Positions 15,005 through 20,995 of a stretch of 64,000 nt of DNA are shown here, in pieces. The position numbers were made by a program, and so were the translations under genes. The DNA is from Emticicia sp. BO119. GTDB lineage: Bacteria; Bacteroidota; Bacteroidia; Cytophagales; Spirosomataceae. Location of the stretch: the NCBI RefSeq assembly GCF_013912375.1, contig NZ_JACETV010000010.1, forward strand, positions 1 through 64,000, given 5' to 3'. Each line of letters starts with the position of its first letter. The stretch's first letter is position 1. The notes beneath the pieces were generated by a model that had not been told where the DNA came from, searched no databases, and saw only the letters and a program-made list of their open reading frames with translations.

Positions 15005-15050
15005 ACCGGAATGTTTTAAACTAACCGATACATTCGTTTAAATGACCGAT
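15005..15050 (+). promoter_or_regulatory. Putative LytTR-type operator upstream of the sensor kinase
   Basis: ACCGAT at 15024-15029 and again at 15045-15050, start-to-start spacing 21 bp (two helical turns). A weaker copy, ACCGGA, lies at 15005-15010. The same ACCGAT-N15-ACCGAT arrangement recurs at 16935-16961. Paired direct repeats at this spacing are what LytTR regulators bind; autoregulation is inferred. Confidence 0.55.
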
Positions 15051-15090
15051 TCTTTTTCGAGGAATCACATTGAGGATTATATCTTTAAAT

Positions 15091-16224
15091 ATGTTTCAAT
15101 TGAAGAATGTTTCACTGATCACGCATCTGGTTGGCTGGCTCACCGTTTTCAGCCTGACAACTTTATTCCTATCAGAGAACCGAAGCATAGCAGAGGTTTT
15201 CTTAAGACCTAATCTCTGGTTCTTTTTCCTGATTTATATGGTTCTTTTCTACTTTAATACACTTTGGCTTATTCCAAAATTCTTTTTTCAAAAAAGATAT
15301 TTTATTTATTTCGGCATTATTCTCTGTTTGTTAATTGGCATAGCCATTATTAAACCATTTGATAGATTGGCTATTGAAAGAAAAAGAGAAAACCGTGTAA
15401 TGCAGGTAAACCAGCGATTTCCGGAATTTGATAGACCTCCGCCACCACGAGGAGAAGTACCTCCAAACTTTAACGAACCCAGAATAGAGCCGCCAGGAGG
15501 CTTTCAACGAGGGCAAAGGCAGGAACCTCCTAATAAAATTGATGTAATCAGTATATTTTTATTCGGTCTGATTTGGGCATTGGGAATGGCGCTAAAAATT
15601 AGTCAGCGATGGCAGGAGTCGGAACAAAGAGCTATTCAAGCAGAAGCAGATAAAGCATATGCTGAATTATCGTTTCTAAAAGCCCAAATTAACCCGCATT
15701 TTTTGTTCAATACGCTCAATAATATTTATTCGCTGGCGGTAACGAACAATAAAAATACGGCTGCGAGTATTATGAAATTATCACAGATTATGCGGTACGT
15801 AACTGATGAAGTAGCTGAAGATTTTGTTCCGCTACAAAGCGAAATAGCGTGTATCAGTAATTATATTGATTTGCAAAAATTACGACTAAGCAAAAAAACA
15901 GGTGTAATTTTTGAAGTGTCAGGCAAAACGGATTCAAAACAGATTTTACCTTTATTATTAATGACTTTTGTTGAAAATGCCTTTAAGCATGGCATTAGTA
16001 ATCATGAAAATTCTGTTATTGATATTAAAATAGCTGTCGAAAGCAATTCCATTAAGTTCGATTGTAGAAATACTTTATTTGCTACATCAAAAAAAGTAGA
16101 AAGAACCGGAATAGGATTGATAAACACTCATAAGAGATTGGCTCATTTATATAAAAATAAATATACATTATGTAGTGGTGAGGAAGCAGGGTTTTATCAT
16201 GTCGAATTAATTATTGAAGCATAA
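15091..16224 (+). CDS. LytS-type sensor histidine kinase
   Basis: 377 aa from the ATG at 15091; a TTG seven codons earlier is less likely. Membrane helices lie at about residues 10-30, 45-65, 75-95 and 160-180. Between the third and fourth is a Pro/Arg-rich loop (FDRPPPPRGEVPP ... GGFQRGQRQEPP) of about 45 residues. Then comes a coiled coil and the His_kinase domain with phospho-acceptor His in INPHFLFNTLNNIYSLA and N-box FVENAFKHGIS. One base separates its stop from the next start, so it is translationally coupled to the LytTR regulator. Confidence 0.92.
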   Translation: MFQLKNVSLITHLVGWLTVFSLTTLFLSENRSIAEVFLRPNLWFFFLIYMVLFYFNTLWLIPKFFFQKRYFIYFGIILCLLIGIAIIKPFDRLAIERKRENRVMQVNQRFPEFDRPPPPRGEVPPNFNEPRIEPPGGFQRGQRQEPPNKIDVISIFLFGLIWALGMALKISQRWQESEQRAIQAEADKAYAELSFLKAQINPHFLFNTLNNIYSLAVTNNKNTAASIMKLSQIMRYVTDEVAEDFVPLQSEIACISNYIDLQKLRLSKKTGVIFEVSGKTDSKQILPLLLMTFVENAFKHGISNHENSVIDIKIAVESNSIKFDCRNTLFATSKKVERTGIGLINTHKRLAHLYKNKYTLCSGEEAGFYHVELIIEA

Positions 16225-16225
16225 T

Positions 16226-16927
16226 ATGTTACTCAAATGTGTTGCGATTGACGATGAGCCCCTGGCTTTGGAGTTAATAAAAGAATATATTTCAAGGTTA
16301 CCTGAATTAGACCTGATTCAGGTGTTTGATGATGCCATTCAAGGCCAGGAATTTCTGAAAGAAAATGAAATTGATTTACTGTTTGTAGATATTAATATGC
16401 CAGATATTACAGGATTAGAACTGGTAAAATCTTTGAAAATCCGACCTATGATTATATTCACCACCGCTCACCGTAAATTTGCCGTAGAAGGCTTTGATTT
16501 AGAGGCGATTGATTATCTGCTAAAACCAGTTGATTTTGAGAGATTCGGCAAGGCCGTAAAAAAAGCGATTGAATACAATAATTTTAAAAACAATCTGATC
16601 ATAGAAACACCGGAATACGTCTTTGTACGTGCTGAATACCGTATAATTAAAATCGAATTGAATGCCATTGAATATATTGAGGGCCTTGAAGATTATATCA
16701 AGATTCATATAACAGGATTACCCCATCCCATACTTACCTTGATGTCGTTGAAGGGCATTTTAGAACAATTACCTGCTCATCAATTCAGTCGTATCCACCG
16801 GAGTTATATCGTTGCTAATGCCAAAGTAAAATCCGTTTTAAAGAAAAATGTTTTATTAACCTCCGGTATTGAGCTACCTGTTAGTAATACCTACCAGCAT
16901 TTTATTAAAGATTGGCAGAAAAAGTAA
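16226..16927 (+). CDS. LytTR family response regulator
   Basis: 233 aa from the ATG at 16226, one base after the kinase stop. Receiver with D9/D10 and phospho-acceptor D55 (LLFVDINMPDITG), Lys in YLLKPVDFERF. The C-terminal LytTR DNA-binding domain begins near residue 125 (VFVRAEYRIIKIELNAIEYIEG) and contains FSRIHRSYIVANAKV. Cognate partner of the LytS kinase. Probable binding sites are the ACCGAT pairs upstream of its own operon and of the dioxygenase gene immediately downstream. Confidence 0.94.
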   Translation: MLLKCVAIDDEPLALELIKEYISRLPELDLIQVFDDAIQGQEFLKENEIDLLFVDINMPDITGLELVKSLKIRPMIIFTTAHRKFAVEGFDLEAIDYLLKPVDFERFGKAVKKAIEYNNFKNNLIIETPEYVFVRAEYRIIKIELNAIEYIEGLEDYIKIHITGLPHPILTLMSLKGILEQLPAHQFSRIHRSYIVANAKVKSVLKKNVLLTSGIELPVSNTYQHFIKDWQKK

Positions 16928-16934
16928 TCAGTTT

Positions 16935-16961
16935 ACCGATACAAACTTTTCATTGACCGAT
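16935..16961 (+). promoter_or_regulatory. Second putative LytTR operator, upstream of the dioxygenase gene
   Basis: ACCGAT at 16935-16940 and 16956-16961, again exactly 21 bp start to start, in the 104-bp gap between the regulator and the dioxygenase gene. The flank matches the first site beyond the core (ACCGATACA ... TGACCGAT). Suggests the regulator controls the following operon. Confidence 0.55.
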
Positions 16962-17031
16962 AAATCTGATTTACATGCAATTAAATTTTTCTTTTCGTCG
17001 TCTATAGAGATATAAAACGAAAAAGAATACG

Positions 17032-18366: not shown

Positions 18367-19077
18367 ATGCTTACTCAAACAGAAGGGCAGATTTATCTGT
18401 CGAACCTAAGAGGTATTACTAACCGAAAAATATTCAGGAGCTTTCATACATTCAATCACGGTTCTTATTCTGACGAAAGTAAAAAACCTTTTGGAAATCT
18501 GATTGCCTGTAATGATGATACGTTGGCAGCCGGAAATGCGATTATTACTAATGTTGATAAAGCGTTAGAAATATTCATAATTCCGATTGTAGGAGGAATA
18601 GAGGTAAAGGACAATAAGGATCAAAAGTTTTTTTTAGATGCAGGAGAAACTTTGATTTTAAAGCTCAGTAAGGGAGATTATTATCAGGTTTCAAACCCTT
18701 TCAAAGATGAGTTGGTGAATTTTTTACAAATCTGGATTGAGAACGATCCAGTAAGTATTAATTTAACTAATAGGCAAATTTCATTTGATTTAGATGGCAA
18801 CAAAAATCAATTAAAGACTATCGGGGACAAGTGTTATATCGGTAAATTTTCGGGTAGGGAAGAAGGGGGTTTAACAATTAATGATAGAGATAAAGGCGTT
18901 TTTGGATTTGTAGTTGAAGGAGCATTTGAGTTTCAGAACCGATTGGTTGAAACAAGAGATGGTATAGCTTTGTGGAACGAAGATAACGAAGCACTACAAA
19001 TAGAATTTGAAGCACTGTCAAACAATGCTATTATTCTGATAGTAGAAGTAGCAATTAAGGACGGAAACTCATTTTAG
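18367..19077 (+). CDS. Pirin-like bicupin lacking all metal-binding residues
   Basis: 236 aa. Overall order matches pirin/YhhW quercetinase-like proteins: FRSFHTFNHGSYSDE near the start, FGNLIACNDDTLAAGN, first cupin with LEIFIIPIVGG, VNFLQIWIENDP, second cupin ending DGIALWNEDNEAL. In YhhW-type pirins the metal is held by two His in a THPHKDMEI motif and by His/Glu in RHSEYN. Here these read ITNVDKALEI and YYQVSN, so all four ligands are absent. It is therefore unlikely to be a metal-dependent dioxygenase; a binding or regulatory role is inferred. Its end overlaps the convergent anti-sigma gene by 23 bp. Confidence 0.75.
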   Translation: MLTQTEGQIYLSNLRGITNRKIFRSFHTFNHGSYSDESKKPFGNLIACNDDTLAAGNAIITNVDKALEIFIIPIVGGIEVKDNKDQKFFLDAGETLILKLSKGDYYQVSNPFKDELVNFLQIWIENDPVSINLTNRQISFDLDGNKNQLKTIGDKCYIGKFSGREEGGLTINDRDKGVFGFVVEGAFEFQNRLVETRDGIALWNEDNEALQIEFEALSNNAIILIVEVAIKDGNSF

Positions 19078-20257
19078 TAGTATAAAATTTACCTTTCTGA
19101 AATCTGAAATAGATTCGGCCAACCCGTATAACAGTCATTTCTTTAATATTTGCCGGATTTTCGATATCATCTTCCAAAGTATGAATACTTCCGTCTGTTT
19201 TTTTTGCGATTTGCACATAGTCAGACTGAAAGGCTAAATTTTTCTGATAGGTTTCACCACATAAAATGATATGAGTCTTTTTCTTAAGTCTGGAAAGGCT
19301 TTTTATATCTTTTACATGGCTGCTATTGTCAGCAATCATAACAATCTCATCTACCTCTGGAAAGTTCTTTTGTGCATACAGCAATGCTTCAATATTATTT
19401 TCGGCCTTATCTTTATTATTTTCAGTATTATTTATAGCCGCAAACATTGTATCCCACAATAATAATTCGTCTTTTTTCTTTACTGTAAACATTTTACCCG
19501 GCAGTTTCCCTTTGGTTTCATTGCCTAAACTATCACAGTCCGTAAAGAAAACTATACCTTTTATACTATTATTATCCACATTCTCCATCATCCAGTCAAA
19601 CACTTGTGTTGTGTACGGAAACATACTGGAAGTCATATCACAGACAATAACAACATTTTTCCATTTATCCACGTTTCTATCAAGTGCTTCGTAAGAGGTT
19701 AATTCATAAGTTTTTCCTAATTCACGTACCCTTAAAATTTTATCACTCATTGAAACAGCAGAAGCATTAAGAAAACGGATTTCTTTATCAAGAAGCTCGG
19801 AATGTTTTTCTGAAGGAGCTGCAATATTTCTTGAAACTAATTTACTTACTTTTAAATTGGTCAAAGGTTCTGAAACTACATTTTCTGATTCAATAAACGT
19901 TTTTTCTACTATGGGCAATTTAGTCGTGAGTAGAGGAGGGCTTAATTTGTTTTCTTCAGGTAGTTCTGGTTTAGTAAATGTCTTATCATTAATTGAGTCT
20001 TCTTGTTTAGGCGTTAATTTAGTGATCGGTGTTTTTTGCGAAAGAATTTCAGATTTGGTAGATAGTGGGTCATCACCTGTAAACCAGTAATAACTTAATC
20101 CTAATACCAATACAACAACACTTGGAATGGAGAAACGCAAGAGATTATCTATCATAATTTTACGTTTCATCTTCCTCCAGTCATCTGGCGAATATTCGGG
20201 CTGGAAATGTTTTAATTTCTCCCTGATAATCCGATGGAATTTTTCTTCTTCTGACAT
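19055..20257 (-). CDS. Anti-sigma-like membrane protein with periplasmic VWA-like domain
   Basis: 400 aa. Residues 1-35 are a short cytoplasmic segment with SPDDWRKMKRKI, similar to the N-termini of Bacteroidota ECF anti-sigma proteins. A membrane helix follows (IPSVVVLVLGLSYYWF), then a Lys/Pro/Thr-rich linker to about 190. The C-terminal half is von Willebrand-A-like: strand VVIVCDMTSSMFPYT (a DxTSx MIDAS-type loop), GIVFFTDCDSLG, and VDEIVMIADNSSHVKD. It starts two bases after the sigma factor gene, which supports a sigma/anti-sigma pair. The periplasmic VWA as sensor is inference. Confidence 0.7.
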   Translation of the reverse strand: MSEEEKFHRIIREKLKHFQPEYSPDDWRKMKRKIMIDNLLRFSIPSVVVLVLGLSYYWFTGDDPLSTKSEILSQKTPITKLTPKQEDSINDKTFTKPELPEENKLSPPLLTTKLPIVEKTFIESENVVSEPLTNLKVSKLVSRNIAAPSEKHSELLDKEIRFLNASAVSMSDKILRVRELGKTYELTSYEALDRNVDKWKNVVIVCDMTSSMFPYTTQVFDWMMENVDNNSIKGIVFFTDCDSLGNETKGKLPGKMFTVKKKDELLLWDTMFAAINNTENNKDKAENNIEALLYAQKNFPEVDEIVMIADNSSHVKDIKSLSRLKKKTHIILCGETYQKNLAFQSDYVQIAKKTDGSIHTLEDDIENPANIKEMTVIRVGRIYFRFQKGKFYTTKMSFRP

Positions 20258-20259
20258 GA

Positions 20260-20778
20260 CTACAATCTTTTTGTTAATTTCTGACGAAGTAAACCATTTG
20301 CTAAAGACAGATTTGCCCTTGAAGTACTTTCTGCAATGTTCAACATTTCGGCAATTTCTTTGTGAGAATACCCTTCTATGGCATATAGACTAAAAACAAC
20401 ACGATAGTTGGTGGGTAAGCTCTGAACTGCCTGCATTATGTCTTCAGAAGAGAGTTTAGCATAAACAGACTCGTCTCCATAATTTGATTCAGCAATATTA
20501 TCGTTTAGTTCTGCTGATTGTTTATGAATATTTTTTCTATAATGATCTATGGCTCCGTTTATCATAATTCTCCGAAGCCAAGGTTTAATACTTTCAATAT
20601 TATCTATTTTGCTGAGATTTTTGAAGACTTTCAAGAAACCATCATTCATTATTTCCAATGCGTCTTCTCTGTTTTCACAATAACTCATACAAGCAGACAA
20701 AGCAAACCCGTGAAAATGCTCATAAAAAATTTTCATGGCTTTTTCATTGCCTTTCAGGCAGTCTGCGACAACCTCCAT
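20260..20778 (-). CDS. ECF-type RNA polymerase sigma factor
   Basis: About 172 aa from the ATG at 20778 (MEVVADCLKGNEKAMKIF). The frame remains open to a GTG at 20850, which would add 24 residues unlike family N-termini. Region 2: YEHFHGFALSACMSYCENREDALEIMNDGFLKVF and IKPWLRRIMINGAIDHYRK. Region 4: LPTNYRVVFSLYAIEGYSHKEIAEML with helix-turn-helix NIAESTSRANLSLANGLLRQKL. Directs RNA polymerase to an unknown regulon and is probably held by the membrane protein encoded two bases downstream. Confidence 0.88.
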   Translation of the reverse strand: MEVVADCLKGNEKAMKIFYEHFHGFALSACMSYCENREDALEIMNDGFLKVFKNLSKIDNIESIKPWLRRIMINGAIDHYRKNIHKQSAELNDNIAESNYGDESVYAKLSSEDIMQAVQSLPTNYRVVFSLYAIEGYSHKEIAEMLNIAESTSRANLSLANGLLRQKLTKRL

Positions 20779-20995
20779 CAAACTATTTGAGGTCAATAGC
20801 TTTTTTCTGGTTAAGGTTTTTAAGTAAATTTCTGCTGTTTGAGTTATCACGGGAAATTTACGATTGAATAGTGAAACTATTTTTGATAAGACGTAAATAA
20901 CCTGTTAAAACGCTGTGTGAAATAATTAATTCCTTAAAAATCATTAGTAGAATCAAGGAGATTCTTAATTTGTAGAGTCTAATTATTTCAGTTTA

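Follow-up and report, generated by a model that had tools for sequence, protein, structure and literature searches.

The DNA analyzed here, which we call the window, is a stretch of 64,000 nucleotides from Emticicia sp. BO119 (contig NZ_JACETV010000010.1, positions 1 to 64,000). Genes for a LytS-type histidine kinase and a LytTR response regulator are followed on the same strand by genes for a predicted exported dioxygenase, a protein of unknown family that we refer to as U171, and a pirin-like protein, with repeated ACCGAT sites in front of both the kinase gene and the dioxygenase gene (Table 1). Since the next gene is convergent, we take the target operon to consist of the dioxygenase, U171, and pirin-like genes. 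The convergent neighborhood (window positions 19055 to 20850, minus strand) holds a gene for an ECF-type sigma factor (Sigma70_r2, r4_2) and one for a 400-amino-acid protein that has no Pfam match and, by eye, one apparent membrane segment; a relative of the latter lies beside the cluster in E. agri (locus L034), and none turned up in the remaining 79 fetched stretches (up to ~8 kb).

Table 1. Predicted genes and sequence elements at the locus, in window coordinates.
Feature	Position	Strand	Remark
Possible third, degenerate half-site, ACCGG	15005..15009	+	19 bp to next half-site; weak
Half-site 1 of predicted kinase-operon operator, ACCGAT	15024..15029	+	67 bases 5' of kinase ATG
Half-site 2 of predicted kinase-operon operator, ACCGAT	15045..15050	+	21 bp 3' of half-site 1
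TAnnTT element, TATCTTTA	15080..15087	+	35 nt after start of half-site 2
LytS-type membrane histidine kinase, 377 aa	15091..16224	+	PF06580
Response regulator with receiver and LytTR domains, 233 aa	16226..16927	+	Pfam; presumed binding protein
Half-site 1 of predicted dioxygenase-operon operator, ACCGAT	16935..16940	+	within TTTACCGATACA
Half-site 2 of predicted dioxygenase-operon operator, ACCGAT	16956..16961	+	within TTGACCGATAAA
CAAT, upstream promoter-like element	16978..16981	+	offset 22 from half-site 2; many relatives have CAAC
CGTCTAT, downstream promoter-like element	16999..17005	+	offset 43 from half-site 2
Predicted exported lipoprotein, intradiol-type dioxygenase, 241 aa	17032..17757	+	PF00775
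U171, conserved protein of unknown family, 171 aa	17847..18362	+	no Pfam match
Pirin-like protein, 236 aa	18367..19077	+	Pirin_C_2 (PF17954)

The LytTR domain of the regulator is clearly recognized (PF04397, 62.7 bits; cut-off, 22.6). Its best-scoring NCBIfam model is that of BtsR (NF008677), at 119.4 bits versus a cut-off of 246, and its matches among solved structures were mainly to receiver domains (best, 60 of 97). The dioxygenase matches Dioxygenase_C (PF00775) with 57.2 bits (cut-off, 27.3), and its residues C23, Y115, Y118, Y156, H162, and H164 are invariant in all 81 sequences compared. We take Y115/Y118, Y156, H162, and H164 to provide the two tyrosine and two histidine iron ligands, and C23 occupies the lipobox position, a lipobox-like pattern being present in 67 of the 81 proteins. 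These features make a surface-linked, iron-dependent, ring-cleaving enzyme plausible. U171 has a confidently predicted alpha/beta fold (mean pLDDT, 93.2; pTM, 0.86) that had no match in the PDB at an E value of ≤0.001, and a search of 241 genomes of the order detected its family in 23. The pirin-like protein reaches the cut-off for PF17954 (28.6 versus 22.9 bits) and stays below that for the Pirin domain PF02678 (19.8 versus 26.1 bits). The metal motif of pirins is HxH, and it occurs within residues 31 to 110 of only 1 of 65 pirin-like cluster members; its absence from the other 64 is in line with the description of this protein as a metal-free pirin in the initial annotation.

That annotation had placed two ACCGAT pairs at 15024/15045 and 16935/16956, with further likeness around the core, and both observations are accurate. 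The two pairs lie on the plus strand, with 21 bp from start to start. Forty bases separate the end of the kinase-side pair from the kinase ATG, and the dioxygenase-side pair lies inside the 104-base gap between the regulator and dioxygenase genes. Beyond the hexamer, TTAAACTAACCGATACATT and TTTAAATGACCGATTCTTT agree at 14 of 19 letters and TTTACCGATA and TTGACCGATA at 9 of 10. The weaker third half-site that had also been suggested, at 15005, is present as ACCGG, and the 14 letters leading up to it match those leading up to the 15045 site at 12 positions. However, it lies 19 rather than 21 bp from the next half-site, and its counterpart in the sister species E. agri (GCCGATATG) is 43 bp away from the next one; for these reasons we treat it as unproven.

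Within the window, ACCGAT-N15-ACCGAT occurs twice, versus 0.00 occurrences expected from 100 dinucleotide shuffles. Genome-wide, a scan of 6,570,506 bases returned three matches, as many as the reversed-pattern control, and the third (C1:664286) falls within a 285-amino-acid reading frame (L001, 1081 to 1938). The broader TTnACC pairs were likewise not enriched in the genome (34 versus 48 in the control). The exact hexamer pair is thus at chance frequency genome-wide, and what is notable is that two of its three copies stand in adjacent promoters. As both patterns are at chance, additional regulon members cannot be called from either; apart from the window's own match, one TTnACC array (L197, below) precedes a LytTR operon. 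The regulon visible in this Emticicia genome comprises two promoters. For the same reason, the weight of the argument rests on the comparison with relatives.

A relative of the dioxygenase is encoded in 113 of 150 genomes of the family. We compared 81 upstream regions, namely, those of the window and of 80 fetched family loci (all with E values of 2.3e-58 or better, chosen among places of like score). The positions of the remaining cluster genes were determined in the fetched loci. The closest named genome at the locus is that of Emticicia agri, with 89% dioxygenase identity. TTnACC pairs spaced by 21 bp were found upstream of the dioxygenase gene in 46 of the 81 loci, and no other distance from 8 to 59 occurred in more than 5. 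A motif-free scan for 9-letter repeats gave the same preference, with a mean best score of 7.56 at 21 bp and at most 6.78 elsewhere, 21 bp being the single best repeat distance of an individual locus in only 21 of the 81. The same scan in 11 loci of the order from outside the family (14 fetched, with L296 dropped for a misplaced start and L294 and L306 for want of a dioxygenase match) yielded 7.95 at 21 bp and no more than 7.37 at other distances, with 21 bp ranking first in 3 of the 11 individual loci. Half-sites in these more distant loci are often altered, for example, to GTCGA/GCCGAT or, in L305, to CATCGCA twice.

A scan of named genomes yielded 80 loci, of which 46 did not match the first set in a 200-base comparison; at least two of these (from Spirosoma endophyticum and Fibrivirga algicola) come from genomes also used elsewhere in the analysis, and for one (L404) the matched start lies inside the gene. 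TTnACC pairs at 21 bp were present in 21 of these 46 loci, including ones from Dyadobacter, Spirosoma, and one Flavobacterium, and any other distance was represented at most once. Chitinophaga and Ohtaekwangia loci carry ACC pairs at 21 bp, and two Hymenobacter loci carry GTCG pairs at that distance. In L404 (a MAG labeled Williamsia) and L362 (Cellulophaga), the cluster looks like one from Cytophagales, and these labels are possibly mistaken. Because the loci are related by descent, their counts do not represent independent events. Searching the 150 family genomes with more specific patterns concentrated the matches at the dioxygenase gene: a longer pair pattern gave 24 matches versus 3 in the control, 20 of them upstream of a dioxygenase gene, and a pattern specific for one regulator class (class B, below) gave 15 versus 0, with 14 in that position. 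The control totals for these two patterns, and for the one extended with CAAC described below, were summed manually. Taken together, these comparisons indicate that the letters of the half-sites drift across lineages and that the 21-bp step persists.

Regulators encoded beside the dioxygenase fall into two groups in a tree of 75 regulators: class A, with 12 members including that of the window (support, 100/96), and class B, with 27 members (99/98). The two classes and one paralog from the Emticicia genome, which joins class B, form a single branch (96/90) apart from 34 other paralogs of that genome. In the 400 bp preceding the dioxygenase gene, an ACC pair at 21 bp is present in 11 of the 12 class A loci and 26 of the 27 class B loci, so the pair is conserved next to related regulators, as the initial annotation required. 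ACCTCA is the second half-site in 22 of 27 class B loci and in none of the 12 of class A. A relaxed core, [AG][CT]CG[AGT], recovers a pair in 12 of 13 class A loci (the 12 of the tree plus L108, whose regulator is not in the tree). This core was picked after the sequences had been viewed and partly matches its own reverse complement, and at a distance of 21 it is found on the forward versus the reverse strand in 12 versus 8 of the 13 class A loci and in 7 versus 4 of the 11 loci outside the family; for the stricter [AG][CT]CGA, the corresponding numbers are 6 versus 0 and 4 versus 1.

When 49 regions were aligned on the pair, two further conserved blocks appeared downstream, giving a frame of half-site, 21, half-site, 22, CAA[C/T], 21, CG[T/A]. 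CAA[C/T] stands most often at offset 22 from the second ACC, with 31 occurrences in 50 site-bearing loci, and CGT follows CAAC most often at 21 (20 of the 50). By the definition used for this count, the pair is absent from 31 of the 81 family loci, 13 of which keep the CAAC-CGT spacing. ECF sigma factor promoters have a general AAC/CGT layout, which the CAAC ... CG[T/A] found here, with 21 to 22 nt from C to C, resembles in layout only. Were the repeats a repressor operator, with the regulator shutting the promoters, they would have precedents, as some LytTR proteins do repress and the three direct repeats bound by CoxC overlap the -35 box (PMC11347149). Here, however, the promoter-like elements come downstream of the pair, 22 nt separating half-site 2 from CAAC, and for this reason we consider repression unlikely and activation the probable mode.

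Extending the pair by CAAC at offset 22 gave 72 matches in the 150 family genomes versus 33 for the reversed-pattern control. The window promoter is not among them because it carries CAAT instead of CAAC. Thirty-nine matches lie within 500 bp upstream of a dioxygenase gene. When these and the eight described below are set apart, a background of 25 matches is left, similar in size to the control. Eleven of the 33 other matches were opened, picked for motif-like letters or as examples. One of them (L237) precedes a U171-pirin gene pair and directly follows kinase and regulator genes, with no dioxygenase gene there; the dioxygenase of that genome is encoded on another contig and likewise has the pair. 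Five matches, in five family genomes (L319, L320, L321, L273, and L274), precede a gene for a lipoprotein with a Cthe_2159 domain; the Cthe_2159 genes of the Emticicia genome and its sister species have no such site in their 1.5-kb flanks. Because the site recurs at unlinked genes, a protein acting in trans is favored, with the caution that letters guided the choice of matches to open.

Two more of the opened matches (L322 and L324) fall between a LytTR regulator gene and downstream DUF3500 and HupE/UreJ genes, an arrangement that is perhaps a parallel system. Both have the ACC pair at 21 and CAAC at 22, and the CG element at 43 is found in L324 only. The matches at L323, L325, and L326 had nothing comparable alongside. 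Another site, at L238, whose neighbor looked by eye like a zinc alcohol dehydrogenase gene, was set aside as it does not have CAA[C/T] at offset 22.

The Emticicia genome encodes 72 LytTR domains. We fetched 60 of its LytTR regions (L144 to L203), excluding the window's own; the places C27:269131, C4:68644, and C10:920 were left out of the fetch. In the noncoding parts of these regions, L197 (~315 to 370; G000:C1:223019-223066) is the sole place with T[T/A/G]nACC pairs at 21 bp; there, three TTnACC half-sites at 21-bp steps, seen as two overlapping matches in the genome scan, stand upstream of an operon for an ABC transporter, a LytS protein, and a LytTR protein. Before the LytTR operon of the sister paralog of L197 (L184), TTTGCAGATT occurs twice, 21 bp apart, and is perhaps a private site of that paralog. 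Exact 7-mer repeats in the noncoding parts of the 60 regions peak at a distance of 21 (20 pairs); a distance of 33 is also high (17 pairs), and the others from 9 to 49 gave 0 to 12. In 35 upstream regions from the same genome, the mean best repeat score is 6.95 at 21 bp versus 6.67 at the next distance. As 21 bp is the best distance in 5 of the 35, a weak trend only, we make no claim of a private 21-bp repeat for every LytTR paralog.

These numbers bear on the idea that the repeats belong to another transcription factor, either a different LytTR protein or an unrelated protein that binds tandem sites, and that the two-component system is a passenger. The abundance of LytTR domains and the triple array at L197 lend it some credit, as does the pair in 14 of the 42 family loci that have no same-strand kinase gene alongside; for these 14, judged on the fetched stretch, we assume that the regulator is encoded elsewhere. 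Against it, pairs are commoner beside a same-strand kinase gene (36 of 39 such loci), and the letters track the regulator clade, ACCTCA separating class B from class A as described above. Moreover, the L237 pair sits between kinase-regulator genes and U171-pirin genes with no dioxygenase involved, and L197 is the sole place of its kind among the 60 own-genome regions. On balance, we consider such a passenger role unlikely. Pure chance, or a repeat with no regulatory role, is highly improbable: the hexamer pair is indeed at chance frequency genome-wide, but 46 of 81 and 21 of 46 loci favor the 21-bp step while the letters drift, and both window pairs are intergenic provided that the kinase starts at ATG 15091.

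That start was preferred over TTG 15070 because the operator is 66 or 67 bases from a comparable ATG in four genomes. These are the four class A loci, of 12, that have a pair before the kinase gene (the window, L034, L099, and L104); of the other eight, L086 has almost no upstream DNA. The distance from the start of half-site 2 to the TAnnTT element, which we take to resemble the consensus of the Bacteroidota -7 element, is 35 nt in the window and 34 nt in the other three. Since the kinase-gene pair was found in four of the 12 class A loci, autoregulation appears to be a trait of some lineages, Emticicia included.

The best explanation of the paired sites is therefore, in our estimate with a probability of roughly 85%, that the adjacent LytTR response regulator uses them as its operators. 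The sites, their spacing, their conservation, the register, and the recurrence at unlinked genes can be read directly from the DNA. The LytTR domain, the 21-bp step, its conservation, and the unlinked copies all favor the initial proposal of a LytTR regulon that ties the two-component system to the dioxygenase, U171, and the pirin-like protein. We propose that the membrane LytS-type kinase senses a cue and phosphorylates the 233-amino-acid regulator, which, presumably in this phosphorylated form, would contact one face of the DNA by binding the two half-sites (core ACCGA, flanks TTn...yACA), which are spaced by exactly two helical turns. In front of the dioxygenase gene, the regulator would sit just upstream of the putative promoter, whose CAAC or CAAT and then CGT would continue the two-turn register, and would help RNA polymerase, most likely activating expression of the exported lipoprotein dioxygenase, U171, and the pirin-like protein. 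In Emticicia, the second operator copy before the kinase gene would subject the two-component system to autoregulation, probably as positive feedback. The best reading is thus of a BtsR-like LytTR regulator that would activate a few targets, namely, genes for exported proteins and their associates and, in some lineages including this one, its own operon.

More broadly, we hypothesize, at slightly less than even odds, that this represents a Bacteroidota-wide module in which a LytTR regulator works within a rigid composite promoter (21-22-21), possibly of the ECF sigma type, with letters that follow the lineage and a register that is fixed, and controls a surface-linked system. If this is true, the module would comprise an exported intradiol dioxygenase, U171, whose fold is possibly new, and a pirin-like protein without metal, joined in some genera by a Cthe_2159 lipoprotein. 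The analysis predicts, for a single LytTR lineage and over many genera at once, the site, its spacing, the promoter frame, and a limited set of targets, which would make the regulator directly testable and offer a way to the missing partner genes. The graded half-site variants may also serve as material for studying how LytTR domains choose their DNA.

The closest known system is BtsS/BtsR (YehU/YehT) with its btsT/yjiY operator, which likewise pairs a LytS-type kinase with a LytTR regulator. The BtsR-type half-site is ACCrCTyA, and the window half-sites share with it the ACC core and the 21-bp step and differ in the letters that follow. The E. coli YehT (BtsR) site oligonucleotide printed in PMC4847170 contains TGACCGCTTACA and TAACCACTCA, direct half-sites that start with ACC, are 21 bp apart from ACC to ACC, and have letters close to those here, with a third ACC 12 bp further upstream. 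Unlike BtsR, the window regulator falls outside the BtsR equivalog family by its NF008677 score, and in the tree BtsR sits on a long branch among the other Emticicia paralogs and not with class A or B. The targets also differ, being exported and associated proteins here rather than a pyruvate transporter. YpdB, HdrR, and other LytTR sites consist of two repeats of 9 to 11 nt with 11 to 13 nt between them, and in HdrR-type systems direct repeats that serve autoregulation lie immediately 5' of the promoter (PMC4847170 and PMC6193735); repeats about two turns apart are thus common to them and the window, whereas their half-site letters are unlike those described here. The RcoM and CoxC operators also have LytTR direct repeats at intervals of about two turns (PMC11347149) but differ in having three repeats with TTC/TTn...GC-type letters, and CoxC differs further in being a membrane one-component repressor. 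No description of this operator or gene cluster was found, judging from search listings; nothing was found that treats LytTR together with an intradiol dioxygenase, nor, by titles and the beginnings of abstracts in a full-text search, anything on LytTR operators in Bacteroidetes. The composite promoter is unusually rigid, and its target set is undescribed in the literature found. According to PMC4847170, LytTR sites share no single consensus, and their orientation can be direct or inverse. A spacing of 21 bp is one of those seen in known LytTR operators (PMC4847170 and PMC11347149), and the arrangement itself is that of known LytTR operators (PMC4847170, PMC11347149, and PMC6193735).
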